This document shows positions 1-18,774 of a DNA stretch of 64,000 nt, piece by piece; positions within the stretch are counted from its first letter, which is position 1; every line of letters starts with the position of its first letter. The notes beneath the pieces are model-generated. The model made no database searches, had not been told where the DNA came from, and saw nothing but the letters and a program-made list of their open reading frames with translations. Both the position numbers and the translations under genes were made by a program. Origin of the DNA: Paracoccus sediminis (GTDB lineage Bacteria > Pseudomonadota > Alphaproteobacteria > Rhodobacterales > Rhodobacteraceae); the NCBI RefSeq assembly GCF_900188295.1, contig NZ_FZNM01000004.1, forward strand, positions 124,001-188,000, written 5' to 3'.

Positions 1-179
1 CGGCGCACGCGGGTGCCCTGGGACGTCCCGCCCCCCGATCCCCCGGAGCCGCTGCCGCTGGGCTGCGCGGGGACGCGGCCGGCCCAGACCAGGCTGGCAG
101 CGGCGGTGCCGAATGCCGCAGTTCCCAGAAAGCCGCGGCGGGATAGGGACAGCCGGGTGCGGTCGTGGTGGGTGGTCAT
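1..179 (-). CDS. Tat-exported protein, N-terminal part only
   Basis: Reading leftwards from an ATG at 179, the frame stays open to the window edge, giving 59 codons. The N-terminus is a textbook twin-arginine signal: SRRGFLG followed by an Ala-rich hydrophobic stretch ending near VWAG. After this comes a Gly/Ser-rich segment, so the mature protein is probably exported to the periplasm in a folded form. Its start overlaps the stop of the cyclase-like gene by ATGA, so it is the last visible gene of the long minus-strand operon. The functional domain lies outside the window, and Tat dependence says nothing certain about cofactor or reaction. Confidence 0.7.
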   Translation of the reverse strand, partial: MTTHHDRTRLSLSRRGFLGTAAFGTAAASLVWAGRVPAQPSGSGSGGSGGGTSQGTRVR

Positions 180-2260
180 GACAATCCTCCTGCAAGCGGC
201 GCTGGGGCCGGGGAATGGGCTGGAAATGCAATGGGGTCGGGGGCCGGCGGCGGCGCGGCGGGACGCGCAAGGCGCGTGGCCAGCCAGCCGTCGGCGTGGC
301 AATAGACCGCCGCCCGCAACCGACCGCCCGGACCCAGGGTCAGGGTGTGCAGGCTGCGGGGCGCGGCGCCTGACGATCGCAGAACGGCCATCAGGTTCAG
401 CGCGGCGTCGGGCGACAGGCCCAGCCCCCTGGCCCAATGGCGGATCGCGGCGGCTTCATGCGCCGGATGCCAGGCGATGCCGCGTTCGGCCTGCGTGGCC
501 AGCGTCAGTTCGGGGACCACGCCGCGCGCCGGATCGATGCGGATCGCCAGCCCCGACAGCCCGCGCCGCGCCGCGGCGCGGCTGGCGATGCCTGGGATTT
601 CAGGAGTGAAGCCGTCCTGCGGATTAAGGCCCACCGCCGCGGCCAGCCGCCGGGTCGCCAGCGGATCATGGCAAGGCAGTTCCCAATAGACCTTGATCCC
701 CGCCAGACCCGGCGCGGCCAGCGCAAGGCCCATCTGCTGGGGATGGCCCGCTTGCAGTGCCCGGTCCAGCCGCATCAGGTCGGGCAGCACATCGATGCCC
801 CCCGCCGCGACAATCACCCTTGCGGCCAGGGCCAGACGGGCATCGCGGTCCGCGCCGGCCAGGGCCAGATTGCCATAGGCCTTGAGGATCGCCCCATCCG
901 GATCGTCGGTCAGGTCGAAACCGCCCCAGATCAGGAACCGTTCCCCCGGATCGGCATGGCGGGCGCAGGCCAGCAGCGGGGCAAGGCCCCTGATGAGCGG
1001 CGCGGGATCCAGGCTCAGCACCCGCGCCGCCCGGATCAGCGAAACGCGGGCCGCCCGCGCGCGCGCGCCGGGCAGCAGGCGGGGATCGCCCGCGTCGGCG
1101 GCAAGGCGCAGGGCCGGGCGGTGCCGGGGATCCAGCGTCGCCGAAAACTCGACCGGCCAGCCGCGCGCCAGGTTGGACACCGCGCGATTGGGCCAGGGCA
1201 GCGGCGCGGCCAGCACCGGGGTCAGCAGCGCGTCGCCTGCCAGCCGTGCCTGCGCCGCAGTGCGCGACGACAGGCCCAGCGCCTGCGCCAAGGTTTCAAG
1301 CGCCTGCGGGATCGCCCGCGCCGGTGGCCGGGGTAAAGACGCCGGACATTCGAGCGGCAGGGCGATCAGCGCGCGCAGGGCGGCGGCGGCGGTCAGCACG
1401 CCGCGCCCTTCGGGACTGGCATCGCCTGAAAGGGATGCCGGGTGGCGGGGCGGTGCCAGCAGGACGGCATCGGCGGGCCAGCGGCCGGGGCCGGTCATTC
1501 GCCGGCAGGCCTTGGCCAGCGACCGGGCGCCGGCCGCCGGATCCACCAGCCCGCGCGCCTGCGCCAGGGTCAAGGCATCCAGGGCGGACAGGTCGGGGGT
1601 CGCCGCGTCGGGCAGGCGGGGACGGGGATCGGGACGACCGGCAGCGTCCCAGACTTGGACTGAGGCCAGGGTCGCCACGCCGGGACCGGGCCACCAATAA
1701 GCGCGCCAATGCCCGTGATCGTCCGCCATCAGCGACAGGCGGCGCCACAGCGCGACCAGTGCCGCGCAATTGAGAGCGCCTGCCGCGGCAAGGGCCAGGG
1801 CGGCGGCGGCATCGACCTCGGGGCAGGGCTGGGACCAGCGGTCCCAGGACCGGTTCGGGCCATAGGTCGCCCAGCCGTCCACGGGATTGCCTTGCGCCAT
1901 CAGGAACCCGACCGAGGCGGACGGGGCATCCTGCCCAAGCGCCGCGAACAGCCGCAGCGCGGCCGCCGTGCTGTCGCTGTCGGGCGGAACGGCGGCGTTA
2001 TAGCCCCAGCCCCCGTCCGGTCTCTCGCAGGCGCGCAAAGCCGCCGCCGCCCGTTCGGCCCGGTGCCGGGCAGCGGCGGCCAGTGCGGGCGGCAAAAGGC
2101 CCGATCCCGCAGCCTCGGCCAGGGCAAAGCCCGCCACGGCGCCGACCCATTCGCGGCTTTCGCCGGGCCGCAGCCTAAACCCGCCCCACAGCCCGTCCCG
2201 GCCCTGCATCCCCATCAGACGGCGGGCGGTCGCTGCGGCTGGTTCCGACGGAACGGTCAT
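176..2260 (-). CDS. terpene cyclase-type repeat protein with extra C-terminal domain
   Basis: The protein is 694 aa. The start at 2260 is chosen over an in-frame ATG at 2353 because it forms an ATGA overlap with the upstream stop. The N-terminal half has alpha-toroid repeats like squalene-hopene cyclases: GLWGGF near residues 24-29 and the QW-like PDGGWGYN at 81-88, closely followed by DSDSTAAAL at 94-102, which resembles the class II cyclase DxDD acid motif but with Ser as third acidic residue. The C-terminal part (about 520-660) has alternating strands such as GIKVYWEL and is not explained by the cyclase fold; a resemblance to ABBA aromatic prenyltransferases is only a guess. No signal peptide or membrane segment is visible. 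The terpenoid role is inferred; it may be a non-catalytic repeat protein. Confidence 0.55.
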   Translation of the reverse strand: MTVPSEPAAATARRLMGMQGRDGLWGGFRLRPGESREWVGAVAGFALAEAAGSGLLPPALAAAARHRAERAAAALRACERPDGGWGYNAAVPPDSDSTAAALRLFAALGQDAPSASVGFLMAQGNPVDGWATYGPNRSWDRWSQPCPEVDAAAALALAAAGALNCAALVALWRRLSLMADDHGHWRAYWWPGPGVATLASVQVWDAAGRPDPRPRLPDAATPDLSALDALTLAQARGLVDPAAGARSLAKACRRMTGPGRWPADAVLLAPPRHPASLSGDASPEGRGVLTAAAALRALIALPLECPASLPRPPARAIPQALETLAQALGLSSRTAAQARLAGDALLTPVLAAPLPWPNRAVSNLARGWPVEFSATLDPRHRPALRLAADAGDPRLLPGARARAARVSLIRAARVLSLDPAPLIRGLAPLLACARHADPGERFLIWGGFDLTDDPDGAILKAYGNLALAGADRDARLALAARVIVAAGGIDVLPDLMRLDRALQAGHPQQMGLALAAPGLAGIKVYWELPCHDPLATRRLAAAVGLNPQDGFTPEIPGIASRAAARRGLSGLAIRIDPARGVVPELTLATQAERGIAWHPAHEAAAIRHWARGLGLSPDAALNLMAVLRSSGAAPRSLHTLTLGPGGRLRAAVYCHADGWLATRLARPAAPPPAPDPIAFPAHSPAPAPLAGGLS

Positions 2261-4533
2261 GGACCGCCCCCATCGCGCGGCGGGACGAACACGAACAGCG
2301 TGTCGCCGACATGATCGGCGGGATCGCCGAAGGGTCCGAACCCCGTGGGCCACACCCCGCGCGCCGTGACCGACAAGCGCAGGAAACCGTCGCTCGCCGC
2401 CCCGCCGCGGTCGGCGGGGATCAGGTCGTTCAGGGGCCGGGGAAAAGTCACGACACGTTCGGCCTGACCCGTCATCAGGGTGGCCTGCACGGGGGCGGCA
2501 CCCTCGCGGGTCAGGCGCACCTCGACCGCGACCATCTGGTCGGGACCGGGATCGGCGGCGGCCTGGGCCAGTTGCGGCGACAGGATCCGCAATTGCCAGC
2601 CAAAGCTGCCCGGAGGGGCAAGGGCATGGATCGCGCGCAGGGACGCGTCGGGGTCGAGGGCCGCGGTCACGCCGGTCAAAACCGGAACGACGGTGTTCCA
2701 GACCGCGCCTTCGGGCGCCGCGACCGGGCCGAAGGTCAGCGCCGTGGTGCCGCCGGGGGGCAGGGTCAGGGGAAGCGCCTCGGCGGGCCGGGCGGCCAGG
2801 ACGGCGGCGGGCAGCAAGGCGTTTTCGTCCAGCAGCAGCAACGACGCCTCGGCCCCCGCGATGGTGACGGGCTGGGCGGCGCGGTTGGTGATGTCCACGC
2901 GTTCGGGATTGATCGTCGCCGTCGGCACGGTTTCCGACAAGGGCAGCGCGCCAAGCCGCTGAAAGCTCAGGACCAAAGGCACCCGGCGCAGGGCGGCAGG
3001 GGCGCCGTCCGTGGCGGGGGTCAGCGTCACCTCGACCGATCCGGTCAGACCGACCGGGCCGGTCAGGATCGTGACCAGCAGGGCATAGTATTCCTCGGAC
3101 AGATCCAGGGTCAGGTCGAAGGGCGAGATCATGTCCACGGCCACCCCCTCTGCCCCGGCGTCGTCCTCGACCGCGATCTCCTCGGGGAAGATGGTGCGCA
3201 GGGTCAGCCGGGCGCCCGCGACGCCGCCCGCGATCACCTGGGGATGGACAAAGGCCCCGCCGCTTTGGCGCGACAGCGCGGATTGCAGCCCCGCGACGCG
3301 GGCCGGGTCGTACCAGGGTTCGGTGCGCAGCAGGACGCGCAACCGGCGGCTGCCGTCGGCTGCGGCGTACTGGACCGGCAGCATGTGCGGCAACCCGCGC
3401 GCCGCGTCATAGGCCAGCCGGAATTCGTGCGGCAGCAGATAGACGGTGTTGACGAATTCCGCCGGGCACAGCGTGCCCCATTCGCTGTCCTGCCAGTCGT
3501 CGGGCAGCGTAGCCGCCCCGGATATGGCGCGGAACACCCCCAGGTTCTGGTCCAGCGTGCGGTCAAAGAAGAACGGCACCCGGCGGGTAAAGCTGGCGGT
3601 CGCATCGCGTTCCTCGGTCTGGACGGGCCCGGCCCAGAAATCGGGAATGTCGATGATCCGCCGGATTTTCCAATGGGCCAGAAGCTGGGGCGAGATCAGG
3701 GCGCTTTTTCCGATCAGGGCCGTGCTGATCTGTCGGGCGGGGGTGGTTGCGGTCGTGCCGGGCTGCGACGCATCCGCCAGGATCGTTGCCAGGGACACCC
3801 GAAGATCCGCGGACGGGATCATCGATTCCACCGTGATGATGTCAGCGCCTGTTCTTTCCCTGGGGATACGGATCGGAAAGCGCGGCCGTTCGATCGGCTC
3901 GGCGGGCAGGGTCGGCCGTTCCTCGGGAAATGTCGGAAGGCGGGGCACCGAGACGGGTCGGGTTTCCTCGCGGACGCGATAGGACGCCGTATAGGCCGCG
4001 ACCAGGGCGCAGTCCGCCGCCGGATCGGTCATGGCCTGCACCAGTTGCGCCACCCGGTCGGGCGACAGGGGCGCCAGGATGCGCAGGCTGCCCGAAAGGG
4101 CGTCGTCGGCGATGGGGGTGGGTTCGGGCAGGACGAATTCGCCCCCCGCCCAGACGATGCGGGGCGGCCCGGACATCGTGCCCAGCGTTTCGGTGCCGTC
4201 CGGCGATCCGGCGGGCAGGGTCTGGCGCAAGGCGATGTGCAGATAGGCCGATCCGTCGATGTCCTTCAGAAATGCGACATCGGGACCAGGAAAGGTGCCG
4301 TCCCGCTGCCCCAGCGCCAGATCGGGCCGGGCAAGGCTGCGTCCGTCAATGGTCGCATACACGCGACCGTCCGCCAGCGGTTCGTCGGCCGCCCTGAAGA
4401 CCGGCGGGACGATCATCGCCATCTGCATGGTGCGCATGACGATGCCCATGTCTGCCGCCGCGCGATGCGGGCGCGGACTGATCCGAACCGGGCGGGCCGG
4501 ATCCTGAACGATGCTGAACAGCGCGTTTGCCAT
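2257..4533 (-). CDS. large uncharacterised protein, operon member of a different type
   Basis: The protein is 758 aa, with start ATG at 4533 preceded by an AGGG ribosome site and 6 bases after the previous stop. It has no signal peptide or transmembrane segment. Predicted structure is mostly beta, with many alternating hydrophobic strands and a Pro/Arg-rich linker near residues 195-230. It lacks the MLSL/MLSF head of its neighbours, so it is not clearly a member of the paralog family, although size, composition and beta-rich C-terminus are similar. It ends in a Gly/Pro tail (RDGGGP). I do not recognise the family. Its place between the paralogs and the cyclase-like gene, with translational coupling to the latter, suggests a shared task. 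Confidence 0.7.
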   Translation of the reverse strand: MANALFSIVQDPARPVRISPRPHRAAADMGIVMRTMQMAMIVPPVFRAADEPLADGRVYATIDGRSLARPDLALGQRDGTFPGPDVAFLKDIDGSAYLHIALRQTLPAGSPDGTETLGTMSGPPRIVWAGGEFVLPEPTPIADDALSGSLRILAPLSPDRVAQLVQAMTDPAADCALVAAYTASYRVREETRPVSVPRLPTFPEERPTLPAEPIERPRFPIRIPRERTGADIITVESMIPSADLRVSLATILADASQPGTTATTPARQISTALIGKSALISPQLLAHWKIRRIIDIPDFWAGPVQTEERDATASFTRRVPFFFDRTLDQNLGVFRAISGAATLPDDWQDSEWGTLCPAEFVNTVYLLPHEFRLAYDAARGLPHMLPVQYAAADGSRRLRVLLRTEPWYDPARVAGLQSALSRQSGGAFVHPQVIAGGVAGARLTLRTIFPEEIAVEDDAGAEGVAVDMISPFDLTLDLSEEYYALLVTILTGPVGLTGSVEVTLTPATDGAPAALRRVPLVLSFQRLGALPLSETVPTATINPERVDITNRAAQPVTIAGAEASLLLLDENALLPAAVLAARPAEALPLTLPPGGTTALTFGPVAAPEGAVWNTVVPVLTGVTAALDPDASLRAIHALAPPGSFGWQLRILSPQLAQAAADPGPDQMVAVEVRLTREGAAPVQATLMTGQAERVVTFPRPLNDLIPADRGGAASDGFLRLSVTARGVWPTGFGPFGDPADHVGDTLFVFVPPRDGGGP

Positions 4534-4539
4534 GATGCC

Positions 4540-6810
4540 CTACCGGATGACCACGAAGGGATCGTCGGTCCGGACCGGCGGCTCGATGATGTCGTCGGCC
4601 GATTGGCGGCCGACACGCCGCACGGTATAGACGAAGCCGCGGCGCGCGGGATCGGCGATCAGCCAGGACCAGGACTGGATCTTCCCGCCCGTGTCGGTGA
4701 ACAGCAGCGGCTTGCGCAACGAGATGCCGTTGGCGGGATCCTCATAGTCCAGCGTGACCATCACCCGCGCATAGCGGGTCCAATCCACCATCTCGGTATC
4801 GACGATCACCTCGACCGCATCGGCGCCGCTGGGTCCGACGGTGATGGTGTCGCCCAGGGTGCCGGTGTGGTCCGTCGCCGTTTCCGACCCGTTCCGGCGC
4901 AGGACGCGCACCTGATAGGCGAAGCTGGTCAGGTCGCGGTCCACCTGCCGCACCGTCCATGCGGCGCTGCGGGCGGTGCCGTTCAGCGTCAGGGTGACGC
5001 GTTCCATCAGGTCGTGGGCGGGATCGGCATAGGCGGCGGTCACGACGATCATCGACACGTCGGCGTCGAAATCGCCACGGCCGACAAAGGCGGTCGTCAC
5101 CCGCGCCTCGAACGGGCTGGTGATGGTCAGCGTCTCGGCGGCGTTTTCCTCGGGCGGAAGGGTCAGGGTGGATCCGTCCGTCATGCGGTACAGCCGGTCC
5201 ACGCGATAGGGGCGGATGGCGCCCCCCGCCGGAACCGACACGAGCCAGCTTGCGGTGGGGGCTTGCGGCGACAGGCTGACGGTCTTGACCGCGCCGCGCG
5301 CCGTCGGGTCGGGATAGGTCAGCGTCACATCGACCGACGCGACCTCGGGCGGCATGGGGGCCAGCAACAGGTCCACCTTGACCTGGCCCAATTGGGCATA
5401 GCTGATGACCAGAACCTCGCCCGTGCCCGCGTTCCAGCCCCCGGCGGGCGGATGTTCCACCGTGGCCATGGATCCGGTGAAATGGACCACGGTGCGGTAA
5501 CGGTAACTGGCCTTGGCAACCCGATCCGGTCCCATCGCCAGATCGAACCGGAACTGCTGCGGCCCGTCGTCGCGGCTGAGCCGCAATTGTTTCTGCACCC
5601 GGACCCGCTGGTTCTTGATGTCGTCGAATTCGTCGTAATCGATGAAGACGCTGACCAGCAGGATCGGATCGACCTCGAAGTTGATGTTGGGCACGACCGT
5701 CAGCGTCATCACCGGGATGTTCGGCTGCGAGAGGCTGGCATAGCGGATCGCGGCGGCGGCTTCCTGGGGCGTCAGGTCGGTGCCCAGGATGGCGTTGGCG
5801 CCGTGTTCGATCTGCACCACGTCGCGGCGGGTGATGGTGACATCGACGACCCCGGTGTCGGTCGTCATTTCGCGGAACCAGAATCCCCGGCCCTTTTCGT
5901 CTTCGCTCTCGCCCTCGGCCGGGATGGCGGTTTCGAAGAAGCTGGGCAGGATGTTGTTCTGCAGGATGGTCAGCGCCATCTTTTCCAGTTCCTGCGTCAG
6001 ATCCTCGGACGGGTCGGCGTCGCGGAAATCGCCGTCGTCGATTTCGACCGTCAGGGTGTGATGGGTTTCCCGAAAGCTGGACAGGGTGGGCGGCGCGTAC
6101 CAGACCAACCGCTGCACGAACATCCCTTGGGCGGTCATGAACTGGCGCATGAAGGACTGCTGGCGCGCTTCCTCCAGGAATTCGCGGCGGTTGCCGTTGA
6201 TTCGGATCGTCACGGCGGGAATGCGCGCGATCATCATCAGTTTCTCGTAGCGGACCTGGATCGGCAAGGCGCCCTGTTCCATGGTCTGCCGGATGAAGCG
6301 CGCTCCGCTTTGCGTCAGGTCATAGGAAAAGCTGGCGCTGTTGATGCCGGTGGCCAGGATCGGGCAGATGCCCTGCGCGGCGATCTGCAAGTCCTCTCCG
6401 AACGTGGTGGCGGTGGCGGTGCCGCCGATGAATTGCGGGGCATATCCCAATTCGGGTTCGCCGGGCCGGACGACGATGCCCAGGAACCGGAACCCCCGGC
6501 CCAGCTCCTCGGCCAGCCTTTGGCGCAGAAAGGCCCGGATGCGGTTCTGGTCGGCTTGGGCGATTTCCAGGCCCACGGTCATTTGCAAGTGGCCGCGTTC
6601 GACATCCTCGGTCGCGGGAATCGGCTGGGCGTGGTCGCGGGTATAGGCGATCAGGTCGATCATCGGGCGGCTGGCCGGGTCGCGCGGATCGCTGCGCAGG
6701 ATTTTCGGCTTGCCCGACACCATGTAGAACTTTCGCGCATTCTCGTCGTCGCGATAGATGACCACGTCCGGGACGCCGGGGACGGTAAAGCTGCCGTAGA
6801 GCGAAAGCAT
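4540..6810 (-). CDS. large paralog, family member 5 (unknown function)
   Basis: The protein is 756 aa, starting at MLSLYGSF with an AAGGA site about 9 bases upstream. The family head is visible: an Asp-rich strand (VVIYRDDEN, about residues 16-24) then an FYMV strand. The middle block includes GARFIR followed by an alternating-strand segment ending in IPAVTIRING. The C-terminal third has three beta-repeats with turns YPDPTARG, YADPAHD and YEDPANG (the last Tyr at about residue 689), spaced roughly 100 residues apart. There is no signal peptide or membrane helix. Function is unknown; it is separated by the short paralog and the phospholipase gene from the other four large copies. Confidence 0.8.
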   Translation of the reverse strand: MLSLYGSFTVPGVPDVVIYRDDENARKFYMVSGKPKILRSDPRDPASRPMIDLIAYTRDHAQPIPATEDVERGHLQMTVGLEIAQADQNRIRAFLRQRLAEELGRGFRFLGIVVRPGEPELGYAPQFIGGTATATTFGEDLQIAAQGICPILATGINSASFSYDLTQSGARFIRQTMEQGALPIQVRYEKLMMIARIPAVTIRINGNRREFLEEARQQSFMRQFMTAQGMFVQRLVWYAPPTLSSFRETHHTLTVEIDDGDFRDADPSEDLTQELEKMALTILQNNILPSFFETAIPAEGESEDEKGRGFWFREMTTDTGVVDVTITRRDVVQIEHGANAILGTDLTPQEAAAAIRYASLSQPNIPVMTLTVVPNINFEVDPILLVSVFIDYDEFDDIKNQRVRVQKQLRLSRDDGPQQFRFDLAMGPDRVAKASYRYRTVVHFTGSMATVEHPPAGGWNAGTGEVLVISYAQLGQVKVDLLLAPMPPEVASVDVTLTYPDPTARGAVKTVSLSPQAPTASWLVSVPAGGAIRPYRVDRLYRMTDGSTLTLPPEENAAETLTITSPFEARVTTAFVGRGDFDADVSMIVVTAAYADPAHDLMERVTLTLNGTARSAAWTVRQVDRDLTSFAYQVRVLRRNGSETATDHTGTLGDTITVGPSGADAVEVIVDTEMVDWTRYARVMVTLDYEDPANGISLRKPLLFTDTGGKIQSWSWLIADPARRGFVYTVRRVGRQSADDIIEPPVRTDDPFVVIR

Positions 6811-6827
6811 GTCGTCGGTCCTTTTCC

Positions 6828-7511
6828 TCAGGCTCGGTCGAATCCGGCCCAGATCACGTCTCGGTCGGCGGGCAGGCGCAGCGGCTGTTCGCGCCGGATG
6901 GTCAGCACCCCCATGGCCCGCTGGCGGGTGGTGGTGCTGGCGGTCGAAACCTCCAGTTTCACTTGCCCGTCCTGCCCCGACAGGCGCAGCGTTTCGTCCA
7001 GGATCGTGGCGCCGTCGGGATCCGTCATCCCATGCAGGGTCAGGGTCAGATGGGCCGCCCCGTCCGGCAGGCCGCGATCCCAGGCGCGGGCCAGGGCCGC
7101 GCCCGCCGCGCCCGCGGGGGCCTCTCCGTTCAGGACGATGGTGCCCCCGCGCCAGGCGGCGACCAGATTGGCCGATCCCGTTTCCGGTTCCGGGATCAGC
7201 AGGACGCGCAGGTCCAGATCCGCCTCGGCCATGGCCAGGCGCGGCGGCGGGCTGTCGGGCCGGGTCAACCGTGCCGTGATCGCCGCCAGATCCTGGGACG
7301 GCGCGTCGCCGCGCAAAGGCAGGGTCCAGAACCCGCCCAGAATCCCTTCGGCCCGGTCGCGCGGCCCGCGGCCCATGACCGTCAGCGTCGGGGGGCTGTC
7401 CGGCACCAGTTTCAGCGGCAGGACATGGTGGACATAAGCGTCGTCCGCGTCGTCGAAGACCAGCAGGTTGCCCCGCCCCGCCACCGTCCGCAGGGATGCC
7501 AGCGCGATCAT
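6828..7511 (-). CDS. short paralog with head domain only
   Basis: The protein is 227 aa. Its start at 7511 overlaps the stop of the phospholipase D gene by ATGA. Residues 16-33 (LLVFDDADD then VHHVLPL) match the head of the 750-aa paralogs (for example PVFSDHDD then FHVLP in the gene starting at 16266). It therefore looks like a minimal version lacking the long middle block. The rest is beta-rich and ends LRLPADRDVIWAGFDRA. No export signal is seen. It could cap or nucleate an assembly of the larger paralogs, but this is inference only. Confidence 0.7.
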   Translation of the reverse strand: MIALASLRTVAGRGNLLVFDDADDAYVHHVLPLKLVPDSPPTLTVMGRGPRDRAEGILGGFWTLPLRGDAPSQDLAAITARLTRPDSPPPRLAMAEADLDLRVLLIPEPETGSANLVAAWRGGTIVLNGEAPAGAAGAALARAWDRGLPDGAAHLTLTLHGMTDPDGATILDETLRLSGQDGQVKLEVSTASTTTRQRAMGVLTIRREQPLRLPADRDVIWAGFDRA

Positions 7512-9109
7512 GACGTCACCGGCAGGCCGATGTTGCCGGTCAGCATCAGGATCAGGTCCGATCCCCAGCTCTGGCGGCTGTCCACCTCGAACAACGCATC
7601 CGCCGCCAGCCGTTCGACGGTGCCCAGCGTGGGCACGGCGACCGGCGTGGCGATGCGCTGCAACGACCCTTGCGTGCCGCCTTCAGGGATGGCGAACCAG
7701 CGGGCCAGGGCGGCGGTCACGTCGGGTTCCGCTGCGCCGAAGATGCTGTCCCACAACTGGCGGCGGAACGCGGGGACGGCGGCTTCCGCCTCGTCCATGA
7801 AGGCGAAGCCGTGTTCGAAATCGGTGAACTGCGACCGGACCGAAAAGTTGGGCGATCCCACGAAACCCCATTTGTCGTCGGCGATGGCGATCTTGCAATG
7901 CACGACCTTGGCCGAATGGTTGAAGATCCCGACCCGCGCCTTTTGCGCCGCCGACAGCCCCCGCATCAGGTGGAAATTGATCGCCCGCGCCCGCGTCCAG
8001 GCGCCGATGTCGCTGGGCGGGTCGTTTGGATCGAACCGGCCTGTGACCAGCACCACGCGGAAATCGTCGTCCGCCCGCAGCCGCGCGTTCAGCGCGTCGC
8101 ACAGGGGCTGCGAGGACAGCATCTGATCCTCGACGTAGTAATAGGTTTCCGCCCCGGCGATGGCCGCGCGCCAGCCGCGATCGACGTCGAAGATACCGGA
8201 CGGCGCAAAGCTGCACTTGTCGTTCATGGGGATCGGCGACAGCCCGAACAGCGACGGAAAGTTGAACTGCGGCACGGTGCGCAACGACTGTGCGTGGATG
8301 CGCCCGGCGGACGGACGGCCGACGCTGCGCGCGGGAATGGCCATGGCGGCGGCGGTGCGGTTGTCCAGGCTGATCGCATGAACCTTGCCGCCCAGCGTGA
8401 CGGAAAAGGACAGCGGCTTGACCGGGCGGGCCTGCACCTCGTTCCACATCTCGCGCCAGAAATCGAAGGCGGGCTGCGCGCAAGGCCCGGTCAGGCGCAG
8501 CTGCACGTCGCGCCAGACCGGATCGTGCCGGTCGTTCACGCAATCCAGCCCGCCGGTGAACACCGTCATCTGGTCGTCGTTCCCGACAAGCGCCAGCTTG
8601 GTGTGGACCGCGCCCGCCGGGTGGGACAGCGTGTTGCAGGCGACCTTGTTGGCCAGCGCCGGTTCGCTGCGCAGTTCCTTGACAAAGCGCATGGTGCCAT
8701 AGCTGGTACGGAACGCCTCGGCCGCCTGAGATTGGACAATGCTTGATCCCATCATTTCCGGCGCCAGAACCCAGCCCAGCACGCGCACGTCCACCCCCGC
8801 CCGCGCCTTGGCCTTCAAAAGCGCGGTCATTTCCGCCCCGCCGGTCATCGTGTCCAACGAGAACAGCGGCGTGAACCACCAGCCCGCCAGCCACAGGATC
8901 GGGTTGCCGCCGGCGGGCAGCGCGTCGATGGCGGCCTTGAGCCTGGCGAAATAGGCCGGTCCCATCAGCAGGGGTTCGACCTCGTTCGCCATGTGGATCG
9001 GGACGACCGGGTTGGCGGTGCCGCCGCCCCCGCCGCTGCCGAAAAGGCCGCTGCCGCCCGGCGTTTCCGTGGTGAACATGTAGCGCTGCTTGTCTGTGTC
9101 GAAACTCAT
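7508..9109 (-). CDS. phospholipase D superfamily protein
   Basis: The protein is 533 aa, with GGAG 8 bases before the start. Two HKD-type halves are visible. The second is canonical: H404, K406 and D411 in VHCKIAIADDKWGFVGSPNF. The first (H169, K171) reads HTKLALVGND, with Gly where the Asp normally falls and the acid shifted two residues, followed by TGGLD. The superfamily includes phosphodiesterases acting on phospholipids, cardiolipin or nucleic acid through a phospho-His intermediate. A Gly-rich N-terminal stretch (SGGGGG) replaces any signal peptide, so the protein is probably cytoplasmic unless exported by a dedicated route. It is embedded in the paralog operon and coupled to the short paralog, which suggests it is the enzymatic component. 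Confidence 0.85.
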   Translation of the reverse strand: MSFDTDKQRYMFTTETPGGSGLFGSGGGGGTANPVVPIHMANEVEPLLMGPAYFARLKAAIDALPAGGNPILWLAGWWFTPLFSLDTMTGGAEMTALLKAKARAGVDVRVLGWVLAPEMMGSSIVQSQAAEAFRTSYGTMRFVKELRSEPALANKVACNTLSHPAGAVHTKLALVGNDDQMTVFTGGLDCVNDRHDPVWRDVQLRLTGPCAQPAFDFWREMWNEVQARPVKPLSFSVTLGGKVHAISLDNRTAAAMAIPARSVGRPSAGRIHAQSLRTVPQFNFPSLFGLSPIPMNDKCSFAPSGIFDVDRGWRAAIAGAETYYYVEDQMLSSQPLCDALNARLRADDDFRVVLVTGRFDPNDPPSDIGAWTRARAINFHLMRGLSAAQKARVGIFNHSAKVVHCKIAIADDKWGFVGSPNFSVRSQFTDFEHGFAFMDEAEAAVPAFRRQLWDSIFGAAEPDVTAALARWFAIPEGGTQGSLQRIATPVAVPTLGTVERLAADALFEVDSRQSWGSDLILMLTGNIGLPVTS

Positions 9110-9124
9110 GATCGCGCTCCGGTC

Positions 9125-11575: not shown

Positions 11576-11586
11576 GGTCGTGTCCC

Positions 11587-13956
11587 CTAAAGGGTTCGTA
11601 TCGAGATGATGAGTTGCAGGGCATCGGTGCGGGTCTGCCACAGGCTGACGGTCGCCTCGCCCGTGGTGCGAAAGGTCTGGGTGCGAAAGTCATAGGTCAT
11701 AGGCTGGCCGGGGCGGCGGATCAGATCGACCGTGGCGGTCGGCGGGTCGGCGGGGCCGAAGAACAGTTCGGTGGTGCGGGGCTGGCCGGTTTCGTCGGGG
11801 GCGCGGACCTCGACCAGAACGGCGTCCAGACCGGCCGAGGCCAGGTCGCCGCCAATCAGGCGGATGGTCAGCGCATCGGGGCGCGCGGCGTCGGTGCCGA
11901 CGACATGGGTGGTTTCCTCGGTTTCCACCCATTCGCCCTGGGACACGATGCCGCCTTCGCGCACGGTGGACCGGATGCGGATGGTGCGGCGATCCTCGTC
12001 CAGGATCGACCATTGCAGCGTCAGCGCCTGGAAGGGCGGAACAAGGGTGGCGCGGAAACGGCGGCGGTAATCGCCGGGCGTGTCGTCGTATTCGACCTCT
12101 ACGTCGATGCCTTCGACGGACGGGGACAGCACGTTCGGCTGCACGATCAACTGCCGTTGCGCGCGAAAGGGTGCGTCCAGCGTGACGAAGGGGGATTCCG
12201 CGACCTGCTGCGGCGCGGTCCAGACGCCGCCCTCGGCAAAGACATACGTTGGCGTCAGGCGGAAGGTGCCGGGGCCTTTCTCCTCGGTCCGGATGGTCCA
12301 GTCGGCGCCGTCGGGGGCGATGTCCGCGATGGGGCGATTGAACGGACCGGTCAGGCGAAAGCCACGGCTGGCGGTGAACCCCCCGGACGGCGTTTCGAAA
12401 TCCGCGTCCAGGCTGATTTCGGCCACATCGGTTGGGATCCGTCCGGGCCGCAGCGTCAGGCGGCGATAACCGAAATCGCCGCGCGGATCGACCATCACCG
12501 CCCGGCTGGCCGAGGTCTGGCGCGGCGTGACATACCGGCTGCGGTCCACCGTGGCGTTCACCGGATCGTCGAATTCATAGGTGATGTCATAGCTGACGGC
12601 CATGCTGGGCCGCCCGTTGCGGGGAAAGGCCAGCAGGCGGTTCCGTTCGCCCCCCGGCCGGCAGATCAGCGGCGGCTTCACGTCAGGGGGGCGCGACGGG
12701 TCGTCGTCGCCATAGGACATGCTGACGACCGCCTGGCGCAGATTCATCTCGGCAAAGGTTTCATCCTCGGGCAGGGACACGATGGCCTCGACCCGGTCGA
12801 AGAACGCGGATGCCGTGCCCAGATCGACGACCGTGGTGTGTTCGTCGTGATCGTCGGGGTCGATCAGGGTTTGCAGGAACGCCTGGGGCGCATCGGTGCG
12901 GCTGACCGGCATCCGCGAATTGTACGAGAACCGGCCCGACAGGTTCGCGGTTTCCTGCTGGAATTTCAGCGTCAGCCCCAGCGATCCGCCAGTCGCCGCC
13001 GTGGCCGCCCCCGCCGCGCCGCCAGCCCCGGCCCCCGCGCCGGTGCGGGCCAGGGCGGCGATGGCCTGGCCCAGGCCCTGGCCCGGCGCGGGCTGCGGGG
13101 GCTGGGGCAGGGACGGCCGGAACATCTGCTGGATCAGATCCTCCTTGAACAGGGCGATCGCCTTCTGTTCGGCCTCGCGCGCGGCGTCGCTGTCGATAAA
13201 GGTCGAACTGTCGATCTGCACCACGTTGGTCTGCACCAGATCATCGACAGCAGCCTGGATGTCGGCCTTGAACCATTGCACCTGGCCTTGCAGCCCGCCC
13301 CCGAAATGGCGGCGCACCTTGTCCATGTCGGCGGTGACAGTGACGTTGACGGCGGGCGACAGCCCCTCGAACTCCAGTTCATAGACCACGCCCACGGGGG
13401 TCGAGGTCGCCTCGAACATGCCCGCCATGAAGGCCGCGCCGTCGTCGGACAGCGACAGCGAAAAGATGGATTGCAGATCGCCCAGCAGCGCGGGCACTCC
13501 GGCGCCCAGGATCTGCGTGACGAAACGCGGGCGCCCGGCATTGGGATCGGCCCCCGCCGGATCGGGCGTGCCGGTGCCCAGCGTGGTGTTGTCCAGGGCG
13601 ATGACGCTGGCCTTGCCTTTGGTATAGGGGATGGGGGACAGCTTTACCGCGTCTTCTTCCGCCTCTGCTGCCCGCGCGATGGCCTTGCGCGCCTCTCTCA
13701 GGTCGCGGTCGGTGCGGCGGCAGTTGACGCCCAGCGTCAGGAAGCCGCCGCCCATCTGGTCGGGGATCTGCGTGCCGGTCAGGAAATTGTGGACCAAGGC
13801 CTCGGTATAGACCCACAGGTCGAACATGGGGCGGCCCTGCGGGCCAAGCGCCATCTGCGGCGCCCCGGCGCTGTAATACCACAGCAGGGGATCCTCGTGG
13901 TCGGGGAACAGGATCACCCCGTCGGCTTCGATATGCGGGGTCTCGAAGCTGAGCAT
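11587..13956 (-). CDS. large paralog, family member 3 (unknown function)
   Basis: The protein is 789 aa, starting MLSFETPHIEADG with AGGGGGAACGGGAC directly upstream. Head: VILFPDHEDP then WYYSAG. A GGGFLTLGVN strand follows. The middle block has DDGAAFMAGM and VVYELEFEGLSPAVNVTV, the clearest example of the shared family core. An unusual Ala/Gly-rich linker (TGAGAGAGGAAGAATAATGG) lies near residues 310-330. A C-terminal repeat has VEVEYDDTPGDY at about residue 623. It is soluble by inspection. The low-complexity linker implies two separately folded halves. Function unknown. Confidence 0.8.
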   Translation of the reverse strand: MLSFETPHIEADGVILFPDHEDPLLWYYSAGAPQMALGPQGRPMFDLWVYTEALVHNFLTGTQIPDQMGGGFLTLGVNCRRTDRDLREARKAIARAAEAEEDAVKLSPIPYTKGKASVIALDNTTLGTGTPDPAGADPNAGRPRFVTQILGAGVPALLGDLQSIFSLSLSDDGAAFMAGMFEATSTPVGVVYELEFEGLSPAVNVTVTADMDKVRRHFGGGLQGQVQWFKADIQAAVDDLVQTNVVQIDSSTFIDSDAAREAEQKAIALFKEDLIQQMFRPSLPQPPQPAPGQGLGQAIAALARTGAGAGAGGAAGAATAATGGSLGLTLKFQQETANLSGRFSYNSRMPVSRTDAPQAFLQTLIDPDDHDEHTTVVDLGTASAFFDRVEAIVSLPEDETFAEMNLRQAVVSMSYGDDDPSRPPDVKPPLICRPGGERNRLLAFPRNGRPSMAVSYDITYEFDDPVNATVDRSRYVTPRQTSASRAVMVDPRGDFGYRRLTLRPGRIPTDVAEISLDADFETPSGGFTASRGFRLTGPFNRPIADIAPDGADWTIRTEEKGPGTFRLTPTYVFAEGGVWTAPQQVAESPFVTLDAPFRAQRQLIVQPNVLSPSVEGIDVEVEYDDTPGDYRRRFRATLVPPFQALTLQWSILDEDRRTIRIRSTVREGGIVSQGEWVETEETTHVVGTDAARPDALTIRLIGGDLASAGLDAVLVEVRAPDETGQPRTTELFFGPADPPTATVDLIRRPGQPMTYDFRTQTFRTTGEATVSLWQTRTDALQLIISIRTL

Positions 13957-13968
13957 GTCCCGTTCCCC

Positions 13969-16266
13969 CTATGCCTGAAAGGTCATCTGTGGGACGCGGA
14001 CCAGGACCAGATCGCGGGTCCAGTCGGTCCAGGCGCTGCCGTTCGGAAAGCCGTTGGCATCGCGCCAATCGGCCTTGATGCGCAGCTTCGCCACCTCGGG
14101 CGCGAAGCGTGGAAAGGTCCAGGTGCCCAGATCGGTGCCCGCCTGATCGCCCGCGACCGTGATGCGGTGCTGATGGCGCAGGCTGCCATCCGCGCCCAAC
14201 GCCTCGGCACGAATTTCCATCTGCGACAGACGGTGCTGGGACAGGGGCAGGCCCACCGCGCGGAACCGCACGGCCCGCATGTCCACCAGTTCGCGCCCCA
14301 GCGCGATGGTGGTGTCCGTCGTTTCGCGCCAGTCGCCCTGGATGAATCCGCGCGCGGGCATCATCGCAGTCAGGCGATAGGTGATGGCGGCGACCGCGGG
14401 ATCGGCGATGGCATAGTCGCGTTCGACCACCGGCTGATCGGCGGACAGGTTGATGCGTTCGTCGATCCGCACCCCGTTCGCCGGATCGTCATAGCGGACT
14501 TCCAGGAACGCCATCGTCACCTCGACCCAGGGCAGGGCCGCAAAGAAGGTCGCGCGGCGGCGATGGGGCAGGGGATCGGGCAGGGTGATGCGCAGGCCGG
14601 TTTCGCGGCGCCAGTCCAGGGCGACGGGGCCGCCCTGCGGCATGGGCCGTTCGAATTGCAGCCGGTATTCGAAGGCCTGCGGATCGTCGCCATGGCCGCG
14701 AAAGGTCCATGTGGCGTCGGGGTTATCGACCGTCAGCGCCAGGATGTCGCGCTGCGTTTCGGTGCCGTCTTCCACCCGGCGCAGATCGACGGTGACTTGC
14801 GGAAACTGGGCAAAGGGAAAGCCCGGCGCGACGCCGATCACCGGCTGGCGCAGGCGATAGGGGCCATCGACGCGCGGGTCCACGATCAGTTCGCCCGCGC
14901 GCCCCTCGACCCAGGGTCCGGTTTCCGGCGGGCGCTGCCCGAAAGGCGAACCGGGATCGAAATGGCAGCGCAGGCGATAGCGATAGGGATCGGTCAGCAG
15001 CGCGGGATCCGCGTCTAGCAGGTTGACCGCATAAGGCCGGCGTTCCGTGGCATCGTGAAAGACCAGTGTTTCGGTATGCAGATCGCCCGTCCCGTCGGGA
15101 TCGGGCAGGGCCAGGTCCACCTCGACCGCGAACAGGCCGTCGCTGGCGAAACGGTCCATGACTCCCACCTGGACCTCTCGGCGCGGAATGGATGCGATGT
15201 TGACGCCGCCGATTATCCGGTCGCGCAGCGCGGGCCAGTCGGGGCGCTCAACGCCGTCCTGATCCACGCGGCGGGCGTGCAGATCGTGGCCCAGCGTCGC
15301 TTGGAACACCAGGTCGCGGCGGCGGACGGTGGTGCGGTTCAGCACCGCGTCGATCTGGCGCACGTCGGTTTCGCGCCGGGTCTTCAGCGTGAAGGACGCG
15401 CCGGGCATCAGCGTGTCGAACAGATCCATCACGGAACCGGCGATGGAATCGACCAGGTTCGGTGCGGGGGCGGCGGGCCGGGTGCCATAGGCGGGGTCGA
15501 AATACGTTTCGGTGATCCAGTCCAGCACGGCGCGTTCGGCGGCGGCTGCGTCATCGACGGCCTCGCCGTCCATGATGACCGTATCGACGCGCACGTCCGC
15601 ATTGGACAGGGCGTCGCGGGTCTGGGCGGCGATGTCGGCGCGGACATAATAGACATTGGCACGGAACCGGCTGTCCAGTTCCCGGTCCAGCCGCGACAGG
15701 TCGCCCGACACGCTGATGCGAAAGGCCGGATGCAGCCCCGACAGCGCCATGCGGTACACGACAAGCGCGGGCAGGGTCGGATCGCCCACCCCGGCCTCGA
15801 TGAAGGCGGCGGCGGCGGCGTTCAGCGCGATCTGGAACGTGGCGGTGTTGGTCCCCGCCATCGACGGTCGGCCGCTGCCCAGCACCGTGACCTGCAACGG
15901 ACCGCCCGGCGTGGCCGCCCCGCCCTGATCCTGGCCCAGCAGCGTCAGTTCCACCTGCCCGTCGTCGAACAGCGGCAGCGACAGGCGCACCGGGCGGCCC
16001 AGGTCGTCGGACAGGCGGTCGCGGATTCGGCCCTGCGCGTCCTGCGAAATCGCCAGTTCGGTCGCAAGCGACAGAAACCCGCCCGCAAGGGCTGTCCCGT
16101 TCGGCCCGTCCCCCAGATAGCGCATCAGGCCGAAGGCCGGATCGCCCCCCGGTGCCTGCGCCAGCGTCGGCCCGGCAGGCAGGACATGGAACAGCCCTGT
16201 GTCGTCGTGATCCGAAAAGACCGGATGACCCTCGATCAGGCGGATGGGCGAAGCAAAGGACAGCAT
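13969..16266 (-). CDS. large paralog, family member 2 (unknown function)
   Basis: The protein is 765 aa, starting MLSFASPIRLIEGHPVF after a GGGGGG ribosome site. Head: PVFSDHDDTGLFHVLP, nearly the same pattern as the short 227-aa copy. GGFLSLATELAI and AAAAFIEAG lead into the shared core strand VVYRMALSGLHPAFRI and a DLSRLDREL segment. In the C-terminal half the turn YDDPANG falls at about residue 592, followed by an ADP-A pattern 30 residues later as in the other copies. No export or membrane signal is visible. Function unknown. Confidence 0.8.
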   Translation of the reverse strand: MLSFASPIRLIEGHPVFSDHDDTGLFHVLPAGPTLAQAPGGDPAFGLMRYLGDGPNGTALAGGFLSLATELAISQDAQGRIRDRLSDDLGRPVRLSLPLFDDGQVELTLLGQDQGGAATPGGPLQVTVLGSGRPSMAGTNTATFQIALNAAAAAFIEAGVGDPTLPALVVYRMALSGLHPAFRISVSGDLSRLDRELDSRFRANVYYVRADIAAQTRDALSNADVRVDTVIMDGEAVDDAAAAERAVLDWITETYFDPAYGTRPAAPAPNLVDSIAGSVMDLFDTLMPGASFTLKTRRETDVRQIDAVLNRTTVRRRDLVFQATLGHDLHARRVDQDGVERPDWPALRDRIIGGVNIASIPRREVQVGVMDRFASDGLFAVEVDLALPDPDGTGDLHTETLVFHDATERRPYAVNLLDADPALLTDPYRYRLRCHFDPGSPFGQRPPETGPWVEGRAGELIVDPRVDGPYRLRQPVIGVAPGFPFAQFPQVTVDLRRVEDGTETQRDILALTVDNPDATWTFRGHGDDPQAFEYRLQFERPMPQGGPVALDWRRETGLRITLPDPLPHRRRATFFAALPWVEVTMAFLEVRYDDPANGVRIDERINLSADQPVVERDYAIADPAVAAITYRLTAMMPARGFIQGDWRETTDTTIALGRELVDMRAVRFRAVGLPLSQHRLSQMEIRAEALGADGSLRHQHRITVAGDQAGTDLGTWTFPRFAPEVAKLRIKADWRDANGFPNGSAWTDWTRDLVLVRVPQMTFQA

Positions 16267-16285
16267 GGGCGGCTACCCCCCCGCC

Positions 16286-18523
16286 TCAGGGCGCTGGCGG
16301 TTCGACGAACAGCCAGTCCTCGGGATTGCCGAAGGTGGCGGTCTTCTCTGGTCCGGCGATCCGGTCGCCCGAAGCCAGGAAATAGTCCGCCCGGTAGGTA
16401 TAATCCAACTTGGAGGGATCGGCCAGGGCGACCGACCAGACCGAGGTTTCGCCCGGCCCGCGCAACAGCGCACCGTGCATGTCGATCACGTCGTTGGCCG
16501 CATCCTCATAGCGCAGCGTGACGGTCACGCGCCGCACATCGGTGCCAAGCGCCACGTCTTCGCCGGACAGGGTCAGCCGATAAACCCCGCCCGGCGCATT
16601 GCCGACCACGGCCGGGACGCCGTTCGCGACATGGGTGCGGGCCTCCAGGCTGCGGGCCGCGCCGGATTTGAACAGATGCGTTTCGGCCACGGTCACGTCG
16701 CGCCGGGCGGGATCCTTTAAGGGCGCGATGAAGGTCTTGACCTTGCCCACGTCCTCGGGGGCGAAGAACAGCGACTGCTGGCTGCGCACGTCGTTTTCCG
16801 CGTCCTCGTAGGTCAGGGATACCAGGATGCCGGTCAGTTCCGTCCAGTCGGCCGAGGGCACCACATCCAGCCGCAATTCATCCTCGAACGGGGTGGATAC
16901 CTTGATCTGCGTGGTGCCCGCCCCCGCTTCCAGCCAGGGGGTCGAGATTTTCTGCGTCGGAAACACATGGGTAATGCGATAGCGGAAGGCCTTGACCTCG
17001 GGCGAATAGACCGGGCGCTTGATCTGGACCTGCGGCGCGTCCTTGGTCAGGCTGCGCTGCTCGATGAACGGTGCGATACCGTTGCGCCGGTCCTCGTAGG
17101 CCAGTTCGATATCGATGGATTGCAGGTCGCCGTCAAAGCCGATCGCGGGGGCGGAAAAGGTCACGTCGATCTCTCCCGGATTGGCCACCGCGATGACCTG
17201 GGCGGGGGCGACCGATGTCGCGTTCAAAAGCCGCTGTCTCAGGACCGGGCCGTTGCGGTAATGCACCTCGGCCGTGACCTGGTATTCGTTGCTGCGGCCC
17301 TTGGCGGTGACGAACTTGCGGCGTTCGTTATCGTCCTTTGTGAAGATGAAGCTTTCCGCCTTCTGGATGCGCCGCCCGGTGTCGTCGGGACTGTCATAGG
17401 TCAGGTCCACCACGATGGAATGGACGTAATCGTCGAACCGTTCGAAATCGAAGCTGGTCGAGACATCGACCTCCAGCCGCTTGAAGAACGGGTGGGCAAG
17501 GGTATCGACGACGATCAGGTAATCGGCCACGTCGGCGGCGATGAAGGTCGGGTTGATCGTGGCGCTGGGGTTGTACTGGCGCTTGATGACATCCGATTGC
17601 GTCAGCACCAGATCGAAATTCTTTTCAAAGTCCTCGTTGATGAATTCCAGCCACTCGCTTTGCAGTTGTTCGGTGGTCAGAATGCCGCCCACATTCAGCC
17701 ATTGTTCGTTGATGAACTTGTCCATCGCGCCAAGGGCGAAGTCGCGCAGGTCCGAGATCATGTCGTCGTCCAGCTCGACCTCGGAGGAACCGGACCGGAT
17801 GTCCAGTTCGACCAGGGAATTCTCGCGCAGGAATTCGGAATAGCCGGTGCGCTTGCGCACCTCGGTCGTGGTATCGCCGCCCCAGAAATCCTCGTCCACG
17901 ACCTCTTGGGTGGTGTAGGTGGCGACGACCGCGCGGACGCGGGACGAACTGATATGCGCCTCGATCACGACGGCGGGCAGCCGCACCTCGAACTCAAGGT
18001 TGTATTCGACGACCGCGATGGCGCCGCCCTGCCGCAAGACGTCGGCAAAGATCTCGGCCCCCATCAGGGTCATGTCGGCCACCACGGACACGGTGTTGCG
18101 CCCGAACAGCGACGGGCGGCCCAGATCGATGTTCTGGATCAACTGGTTGCCCGTGCCGCGCGCAATGCGCAGGACGGCCGTGCCGCCGATGAAGTTGACG
18201 GGCCTGATCTTGGGCGTCGGGATCGGCGCGCCGGGCGACGGCGCCTCGGCCCGCAGGATCCGCTGCGCCTCGGCGGTGGCGCGCGGCCCGATGATGTCGG
18301 CGGGCGCCGTCAGCACGGTCGTCAGGACCAGGAACCCGCCGCCTTGCTGCTTGCCCTCGATGGGCAGTCCGGCCTGATAGAGCACGAACTGGAATTGCGG
18401 CGTCCCATCCGGGTTGCGGGCCAGTTCGACCGTGTTGGGCAGGTAATAGAATGTTTCCTTCGCTTCGTCGTCGCGAAAGAAATCGACCCCCTCGATGGAG
18501 AATCCGTCGGTCAGCGACAGCAT
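16286..18523 (-). CDS. large paralog, family member 1, first gene of the operon
   Basis: The protein is 745 aa. The start at 18523 (MLSLTDGFSIEG) is preferred over ATG at 18556 because it matches the family N-terminus and has AAAGG 9 bases upstream. Head: VDFFRDDEA then FYYLPN. Core: GAEIFADVLRQGG and VVEYNLEFE. The C-terminal 277 residues hold three tandem repeats with YED turns at about 476, 572 and 672, each followed by a strand and a DP[AS] motif. This gives the best view of the roughly 96-100 residue beta-sandwich-like unit. It is the first gene after the AT-rich promoter. Function not recognised. Confidence 0.8.
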   Translation of the reverse strand: MLSLTDGFSIEGVDFFRDDEAKETFYYLPNTVELARNPDGTPQFQFVLYQAGLPIEGKQQGGGFLVLTTVLTAPADIIGPRATAEAQRILRAEAPSPGAPIPTPKIRPVNFIGGTAVLRIARGTGNQLIQNIDLGRPSLFGRNTVSVVADMTLMGAEIFADVLRQGGAIAVVEYNLEFEVRLPAVVIEAHISSSRVRAVVATYTTQEVVDEDFWGGDTTTEVRKRTGYSEFLRENSLVELDIRSGSSEVELDDDMISDLRDFALGAMDKFINEQWLNVGGILTTEQLQSEWLEFINEDFEKNFDLVLTQSDVIKRQYNPSATINPTFIAADVADYLIVVDTLAHPFFKRLEVDVSTSFDFERFDDYVHSIVVDLTYDSPDDTGRRIQKAESFIFTKDDNERRKFVTAKGRSNEYQVTAEVHYRNGPVLRQRLLNATSVAPAQVIAVANPGEIDVTFSAPAIGFDGDLQSIDIELAYEDRRNGIAPFIEQRSLTKDAPQVQIKRPVYSPEVKAFRYRITHVFPTQKISTPWLEAGAGTTQIKVSTPFEDELRLDVVPSADWTELTGILVSLTYEDAENDVRSQQSLFFAPEDVGKVKTFIAPLKDPARRDVTVAETHLFKSGAARSLEARTHVANGVPAVVGNAPGGVYRLTLSGEDVALGTDVRRVTVTLRYEDAANDVIDMHGALLRGPGETSVWSVALADPSKLDYTYRADYFLASGDRIAGPEKTATFGNPEDWLFVEPPAP

Positions 18524-18653
18524 CCTTGCGAACCTTTGAAAAGTCAGGTGCCGCAAAACGCGATCCCCGACATGACAGACAACTTTTACGACACTAAGGA
18601 TGCCAGATTAATGACTCTGCGGCTGGCAAAAGTAAAGCAAAGAATTCTCGTCG

Positions 18654-18757
18654 ATTTGCAAGTTTTTATGAACACATTATAAATTAATTAATAGAGTATA
18701 ATGATTATTATTATGGTAGCAAATTTTGGATTTATTATTACAGCCATATCAGGATTT
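18654..18757. other. AT-rich intergenic island
   Basis: Only 11 of the 60 bases in 18661-18720 are G or C, in a segment where the genes are visibly very GC-rich. The island lies between the end of the glycosyltransferase gene (18775) and the start of the paralog operon (18523). The gap of about 250 bases holds no supported gene. Such islands are typical targets of xenogeneic silencers and often mark horizontally acquired promoters; that role is inferred here. Confidence 0.75.
18695..18722 (-). promoter_or_regulatory. candidate sigma-70 promoter of the paralog operon
   Basis: On the minus strand, TTGCTA (18722-18717) and TATACT (18700-18695) are separated by 16 bases. This is a good match to the sigma-70 consensus and implies a leader of about 165 bases before the start at 18523. 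No other comparably good promoter was noticed ahead of the ten-gene operon. Confidence 0.5.
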
Positions 18758-18774
18758 TGCGTCGAACAGCCTGT

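Follow-up and report, generated by a model that had tools for sequence, protein, structure and literature searches.

Our results establish that a tightly packed gene run in Paracoccus sediminis is a variant of a gene cassette that is sparsely but very widely spread across phyla. The window (the whole 64,000-nucleotide stretch analyzed, G000:C30:124001-188000 of this genome) carries on its minus strand, between positions 18523 and 1, ten genes of this run, and an eleventh lies just outside it. The cassette comprises the protein classes F1, P600, P230, A, B and C, and the Paracoccus version adds extra A- and C-type copies and several enzymes. The cassette is likely a real, undescribed machine, because it is large, keeps its order across phyla, occurs in few genomes and is unnamed in the libraries used. 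The initial annotation of the window had suggested an assembly of related subunits with an enzyme, and a multi-subunit assembly carrying enzymes remains a plausible description. These findings lead us to propose, tentatively, that A, B, C and F1 could form a soluble hetero-oligomeric chassis for interchangeable protease-gated enzymes that serve in conflict or cell death. The genes of the run, in order of transcription, are:

16286-18523, minus strand: A-type core protein, 745 aa (A profile 3.3e-70)
13969-16266, minus strand: B-type core protein, 765 aa, divergent (B profile 1.7e-54)
11587-13956, minus strand: C-type core protein, 789 aa (C profile 3e-84)
9125-11575, minus strand: second C-like core protein, 816 aa, divergent (C profile 3.5e-61)
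7508-9109, minus strand: phospholipase D (PLD)-fold enzyme, 533 aa (Pfam PLDc_2 2.6e-9, over cut-off)
6828-7511, minus strand: small protein, 227 aa, conserved in the Paracoccus genome G012 and on the SMMA plasmid described below
4540-6810, minus strand: second A-type core protein, 756 aa (A profile 4.6e-50)
2257-4533, minus strand: F1 homologue, 758 aa (F1 profile 1.6e-10; profile-profile alignment below)
176-2209, minus strand: toroid-like/DMATS-like fusion, 677 aa, or 725 aa from an upstream GTG (sub-cut-off library matches and hhalign)
1-179, minus strand: start of a tyrosinase with a Tat signal, the remainder outside the window at L006:16659-18179
L006:15724-16653, outside the window, 5 bases past the tyrosinase: trypsin-like protease (Pfam Trypsin 2.5e-8)

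From the 745-aa gene onward the intergenic gaps are 19, 12, 11, 15, -4, 17, 6, 47 and -4 bases, and these distances predict that the ten genes are likely a single transcript. The close packing described initially is thus borne out by the gene coordinates, and the stated limit of 19 bases holds for every gap except the 47-base one before the 677-aa gene, which becomes an overlap if the upstream GTG is the start. The count of ten is right for the window, but the run itself is longer, with at least 11 genes, and continues into the trypsin-like protease. Just three of the eleven products receive a name over cut-off in library scans: the PLD protein, the tyrosinase and the trypsin. The nearest annotated matches are the Paracoccus plasmids SMMA_5 and SMMA_5_TC, where the first gene product is 80.5% identical.

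The five window proteins of 745-816 aa are about 20% identical to one another. Among the matches listed by phmmer, four window pairs score 3e-15 to 3e-22 and other pairs are weaker, and profiles built from other phyla match all five at 5e-50 to 3e-84, so the relatedness first noticed by eye goes beyond chance. Two other early assignments fared less well. The 227-aa protein had been called a head-only copy of the paralogs; hhalign gives it E 0.087 to A and 0.0067 to P230 with probabilities below 6, which does not sustain that description. The large beta-rich protein described as unrelated indeed shows no profile relation to A, but it is a cassette member in its own right: hhalign of F1 against F6 (probability 99.4, E 3.5e-21, 645 columns) identifies the window's 758-aa protein as an F1 homologue. 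P230 and P600 are distantly related to A (hhalign probability 96.5 and 93, respectively).

Searches of Pfam, NCBIfam, PHROGs and PADLOC found no named family for the window core proteins (best 0.068), in line with the earlier remark that the paralogs belong to no recognised family; none of these profile searches gave a match over cut-off. Some relatives of the A, B and C proteins are likewise without a named family in library scans, and the A, B and C profiles found no convincing match among PDB sequences (best 0.075). PADLOC returned zero matches for the six large core proteins submitted to it. The core looks categorically new, unlike any family searched. The window core proteins are probably soluble, as judged from sequence, because the highest 19-residue hydropathy among them is only 1.56. 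In relatives longer than 200 aa, values above 1.6 occur in 10/71 A, 8/48 B, 5/51 C, 7/29 F1, 9/24 P600 and 1/18 P230 proteins.

To follow the cassette across genomes, we built profiles of the six classes in Python from 7 canonical loci and compared them with 46 loci obtained by a pattern scan of a species-genome collection. Four of these loci are contigs of one Cohnella genome, three appear to repeat the genomes G300, G470 and G780, and many are cut by contig ends or by the ends of the extracted stretch. The order in relatives is F1, P600, P230, A, B, C. A, B and C are consecutive in 32 of the 46 loci, a conserved neighborhood of the kind that the initial annotation had proposed to look for, and in 21/46 F1 precedes A and B, whether or not P600 and P230 are present. 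The locus titles include Rhizobium, Shinella, Mesorhizobium, Mariprofundaceae, Nitrotoga, Myxococcaceae and Acidobacteria; Anaerolineae, Chloroflexales, Nonlabens, Larkinella, Fermentimonas, Cohnella and cyanobacteria; and Streptomyces, other Actinomycetes and one uncultured Methanosarcinales. Taxa were taken from record titles and, since many of the records come from metagenome assemblies, an individual title may be wrong, most of all that of the archaeon. One locus, L089, is titled Candidatus Kuenenia and shares its gene layout with contig C35 of G300, which falls in the window's class; its title may be a mislabel. The match in L092 (Oligoflexia) is weak and short. In Cohnella the reading frames appear fragmented: L088, L090, L091 and L093 hold partial or frame-broken cassette genes on four contigs of the one Cohnella faecalis genome.

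Carriers are few in each sample, and every count that follows includes the carrier genome used as starting point. The first gene of the window's run is present in 2 of 61 genus-level sample genomes (the window genome being one of the two), and wider samples gave 3/385 class genomes, 3/398 phylum genomes, 3/10 genomes in the family of G075, 2/394 in the class of a Streptomyces carrier and 2/296 in the phylum of a Bacteroidota carrier. The full set from trypsin to A, in identical order, is found in G012 and on plasmid pNSM5TCa of Paracoccus sp. SMMA_5_TC. We considered and set aside two vehicles for this distribution. A phage origin finds no confirmed relative in viral contigs (pattern scans, one protein and one alignment) and none among 50,697 phage records searched with one B protein; as to spread by plasmids, repeated searches of 72,556 plasmid records always recovered the same 3. 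In the open-licence PMC literature we recognised no paper describing the cassette, a weak negative.

The phylogeny of the core is as expected of old subunits kept together. In a tree of 143 A, B and C proteins of 640-1150 aa (G470 and L053, which are one genome, were both kept), 60/60 A proteins fall in one split, although with weak support (0.445), 39/42 B proteins in another (0.94) and 38/41 C proteins in a third (0.996). The exceptions are the window proteins encoded at 13969 and 9125, which lie outside the main B and main C splits, respectively, each with its Paracoccus orthologues; the 11587 protein falls inside the C split. For the second A-type protein, at 4540, the closest sequences from outside Paracoccus are two additional A copies in Sphaerisporangium, L083:2140 and L071:2255. 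Left out of the tree was a chimaeric 757-aa protein of G300 (L026:2369-4642), which has an A-like start and becomes C-like towards its end, at a locus where B is missing; it is probably a product of recombination between paralogues.

An AlphaFold2 model of the 745-aa A protein (16286-18523) from a 35-row alignment (mean pLDDT 81.6, pTM 0.44) comprises a strand-rich head over residues 1-180 with two helices between strands, a long hairpin at 185-244 followed by a helix, and immunoglobulin (Ig)/FN3-like domains from about 349 to 745. PDB structure searches match these arms with Z up to 7.2. For the head no fold match was found, an uninformative result in that the arms fill the match lists and the head was barely probed. 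A viral structure search with the same model returned low TM-scores. The F1-type model is of lower quality (mean pLDDT 63.3) and gave mostly Ig-like matches in a fold search, none with Z >=8.

The enzymes of the Paracoccus operon are more readily named than its core. Enzymes of the PLD family carry two HKD motifs; the Pfam match agrees with the family first assigned to the window protein, whose second motif is canonical and whose first is without Asp at the usual place. The protein described initially only by its Tat signal, which was read by eye, is a tyrosinase (PF00264 5.1e-38) with further matches to DUF7868 (1.1e-8), PPO1_DWL (8.8e-6) and, below cut-off, PPO1_KFDV (0.0012). It aligns to the chloroplastic polyphenol oxidase 6els over residues 235-479, and its best PDB matches by E-value are haemocyanins. 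Latent polyphenol oxidases of plants are activated by proteolysis, and by analogy with their C-terminal extension the similar one here would be expected to make the tyrosinase a pro-enzyme. The 176-2209 protein joins an N-terminal alpha/alpha-toroid-like half to a C-terminal DMATS-like half. Its library matches, NCBIfam SCO2321_fam at 8.4e-7 (28 bits, cut-off 300) and Pfam SQHop_cyclase_N at 0.019, are both sub-cut-off, and its DMATS-like half aligns to the DMATS-like family with hhalign E 3.9e-4, probability 35 and 22% identity. Class II terpene cyclases typically carry a DxDD motif. At that position the window toroid reads DSDST and so lacks the motif, while DxDDT is present in 6/6 aligned relatives (6/7 aligned toroids). 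The earlier label of a terpene-cyclase-repeat protein covers just the toroid half and misses the fusion.

Enzymes of other kinds follow the core elsewhere. Four of the 46 loci are without a plus-strand C and 9 end less than 1.5 kb from C; in the 33 that could be judged, the next three genes after C include a caspase-cluster gene in 7, a DMATS-like gene in 8, both in 1 and neither in 17. One caspase-cluster member is confirmed in Pfam (3.8e-19), and the others rest on blastp clusters and profiles made from these. Among caspase-cluster proteins longer than 200 aa, GHG is present in 13/13 and D[CS]CHS in 7/13. At L059:12380-14113 and L066:12251-14102, a simple pattern search shows adjacent caspase-cluster pairs, one partner with both motifs and the other with GHG only. 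L057 encodes a Tle1-like phospholipase (8.2e-64) two genes past its caspase, and L053 an amidase (7.1e-12) and a NAL1-family protein (2e-57), which we take to be trypsin-like. The DMATS-like profile, A13, matches PDB entries 6zrx (6.4e-5) and 6zry (7e-5), both annotated 'DMATS type aromatic prenyltransferase', over 258 positions. A toroid of about 290 aa then follows the DMATS-like gene in 4 of 9 loci (L064, L069, L079, L084), and 5/9 show none. Altogether the toroid is present in 11 genomes or records, the window's included, several of which built the profile; against PDB sequences this profile found no match. At L045:6147-13941, G708 encodes a lone core-like protein. Next to it come a gene that aligns with the DMATS-like family at 25% identity, one for a DxDDT toroid and one for an unfamiliar protein of 1197 aa, which together may be a minimal version of the cassette.

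A second set of genes lies close to the Paracoccus operon. Two genes match PF19955 (EAD1) over cut-off at 3.5e-9 and 1.6e-8, one of them an EAD1-trypsin fusion, and a STAND protein matches AAA_16 (2e-9) and nSTAND1 (6.6e-7), also over cut-off. In the window genome this module is 2.4 kb beyond the trypsin gene with an opposite-strand gene between; on the SMMA plasmid the EAD1/STAND genes are just upstream of A, on the other side of the cassette. The module is near the cassette in 2/3 Paracoccus cases. Of the 61 sampled genomes, just the two cassette carriers have the STAND protein: the window genome and G012, in the latter as a fragment. Pairing of EAD1 with trypsin is a theme of conflict systems (PMC7159879). 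A known defence system was considered and rejected: PADLOC, whose input left out the 227-aa protein, the tyrosinase, the second EAD1 protein and the trypsin, gives no more than three weak matches: DrmC for the PLD protein, mad8 for the STAND protein and the trypsin-like model RT-Protease_XI for the EAD1-trypsin fusion. Upstream of the operon, on the same strand at 18775-22276, are a group 1 glycosyltransferase gene (Pfam) and then, by eye, ABC transporter permease- and ATPase-like genes.

How such a cassette might work can be sketched from these associations. We envision a scenario in which A, B and C, three ancient paralogues each with a head and Ig/FN3-like arms, would assemble with F1 and smaller partners into one soluble complex whose heads and arms hold the partners. 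The enzymes would wait latent and be released by proteolysis. The clearest candidate is the tyrosinase, with its polyphenol oxidase-like C-terminus and a gene abutting that of a trypsin: in Paracoccus this putative pro-enzyme would be activated by the protease encoded 5 bases downstream. A nucleoside triphosphate (NTP)-dependent switch could trigger the protease, with the nearby EAD1-trypsin, EAD1 and STAND genes supplying the trigger, and elsewhere caspases may take the place of the protease. The outcome would be damage to self or to a rival. While the cassette, its order, its subtypes and its enzyme families are observed, it is assembly, latency, triggering and purpose that we infer. Bacterial immunity is documented to use killing enzymes under protease control, in some cases with Ig-like folds (PMC12799240). 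A broader form of the proposal, that these proteins define a novel type of soluble machine with several subunits, found in many bacterial phyla and possibly archaea, in which each lineage equips a standard chassis of A, B, C and F1 with its own protease-gated enzymes (caspases, phospholipases, a pro-phenoloxidase, a prenyltransferase/cyclase) for cell death or attack, we regard as rather doubtful.

Several observations weigh against the proposal. The Tat signal places the tyrosinase outside the cytoplasm and the core has no obvious export signal (judged from hydropathy and by eye only), which argues against a single compartment for all parts. Profiles of the Paracoccus PLD, tyrosinase and trypsin match 0/46 loci with flanks each, which makes these enzymes a local feature of Paracoccus among the genomes sampled; the STAND, EAD1 and EAD1-trypsin profiles also match 0/46 each. 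With enzymes and STAND module both confined to the genus in this sample, gating may not apply in other phyla. In G012 only a C-terminal STAND fragment was found, on a different contig, neither a caspase nor a DMATS-like gene was seen among the next three genes at 17 of the 33 judged loci, and the PADLOC null for the six core proteins adds to the count.

An unlikely but distinct explanation is that the cassette proteins are carried as cargo by, or work together with, an extracellular contractile injection system (eCIS). The eCIS marker Pvc16_N (PF14065) is present in 16/35 core-locus genomes (15 over cut-off) and in 5/13 of a further set, from which 2 plasmid records, neither with the marker, were set aside, giving 21/48. 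Among relatives of the window genome the marker occurs in 7/61, that genome counted, and a published survey reports eCIS in 1.9% of 64,756 genomes (PMC8213781). In the Methanosarcinales assembly an eCIS starts 2.7 kb past the DMATS-like gene, one Streptomyces has an eCIS about 18 kb from the cassette, and the window genome has one on a different contig, C23. The C23 cluster (G000:C23:176650-205000; L111, L112) is eCIS-like, with a Pvc16-type cap, two sheath-family genes and tube/baseplate-like genes identified partly by eye. We dropped the sheath family PF04984 (21/35 genomes) from the count because phages share it (3/14 control genomes). The enrichment in carriers is suggestive. However, the contrast is not lineage-matched and some of the 48 are represented by fragmentary or single-gene loci; 27/48 core-locus genomes are without Pvc16_N; eCIS cap, sheath and tube profiles match only 1/46 locus flanks, the Methanosarcinales one used in building them; and library scans of the operon proteins gave zero sheath, tube or baseplate matches.

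We consider it equally improbable that the core is a scaffold for prenylating and oxidizing an aromatic substrate, whether a small molecule, a peptide or the core proteins themselves. The actors would be the DMATS-like prenyltransferase and the cyclase-like DxDDT toroid, joined in Paracoccus by the tyrosinase. The 6zrx match of the DMATS-like profile favors this idea, as do the DMATS-like gene within the next three after C in 9/33 loci, the toroid that accompanies it in 4 of these 9, and the DxDDT motif of 6/7 aligned toroids. Yet the DMATS-like gene is absent from the next three in 24/33 loci, 5/9 lack a toroid, the tyrosinase is found at 0/46 loci, the toroid is without a PDB sequence match, and the caspases and PLD protein would go unexplained. 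A structural particle, fibre or shell, with incidental enzyme neighbors is a shade less probable again. Tandem Ig-like domains, several paralogous subunits, the conserved A-B-C order and a core that stays while enzymes vary would all suit a particle, but in three Paracoccus genomes or records the enzyme genes sit within the run, in identical order, and the structure searches, which barely probed the head, matched no known fold of a shell or fibre.

A pore-forming or complement-like killing complex is very improbable: A-model residues 348-450 align to cholesterol-dependent cytolysins (presumably their domain 4) with Z up to 7.2, macroglobulin and complement chains are frequent atop the Foldseek list with TM-scores near 0.1, and one toroid matches TED_complement at 0.042, but Z stays below 8 and ties with plain Ig/FN3 rows. 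In the MACPF/CDC comparison only an Ig-like domain matches, with the head barely probed. Two related candidates were rejected. CGEQ is the thioester motif of complement and alpha-2-macroglobulin proteins, and C[GA]EQ occurs in 0/6 toroid sequences, one of them a fragment; for a beta-barrel pore, the long hairpin of the A model is polar (mean hydropathy -0.4 and -0.6).

Set beside known systems, the cassette shares individual elements with several. An EAD1-trypsin protein, a second EAD1 protein and a STAND NTPase near two Paracoccus cassettes resemble the EAD1/STAND/trypsin systems of Kaur et al. 2020 (PMC7159879). By contrast, the words tyrosinase, immunoglobulin and contractile are absent from the main text of that paper, and the module occurs in 0/46 other loci. 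The canu caspase-nuclease loci (PMC12799240) share the logic of a protease-gated enzyme and have caspases with Ig-like folds, and in L057 a caspase is followed, farther along, by a sub-threshold metallo-beta-lactamase match (0.013). However, the six-gene core does not appear in the passages of that paper examined, and of the canu pair of caspase and gated metallo-beta-lactamase nuclease neither part was matched by the window operon proteins scanned. Compared with eCIS, whose marker accompanies the cassette in the 21/48 carriers, the operon contains no sheath, tube or baseplate gene. The DMATS-like enzymes match DMATS-type aromatic prenyltransferases over 258 positions and here follow an Ig-arm cassette; in Paracoccus the DMATS-like half and a toroid form one protein. 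Polyphenol oxidases and tyrosinases share the tyrosinase core, PPO1_DWL and the C-terminal domain, which here are found in a bacterial protein with a Tat signal, beside protease and Ig-arm genes. Because caspases, trypsins, lipases and aromatic-modifying enzymes accompany the cassette, its role can be tested in non-pathogenic hosts. In animals, phenoloxidase is likewise the product of a prophenoloxidase cascade and, if the protease-gated chassis we propose is correct, the trypsin-tyrosinase pair of Paracoccus would be its bacterial parallel.

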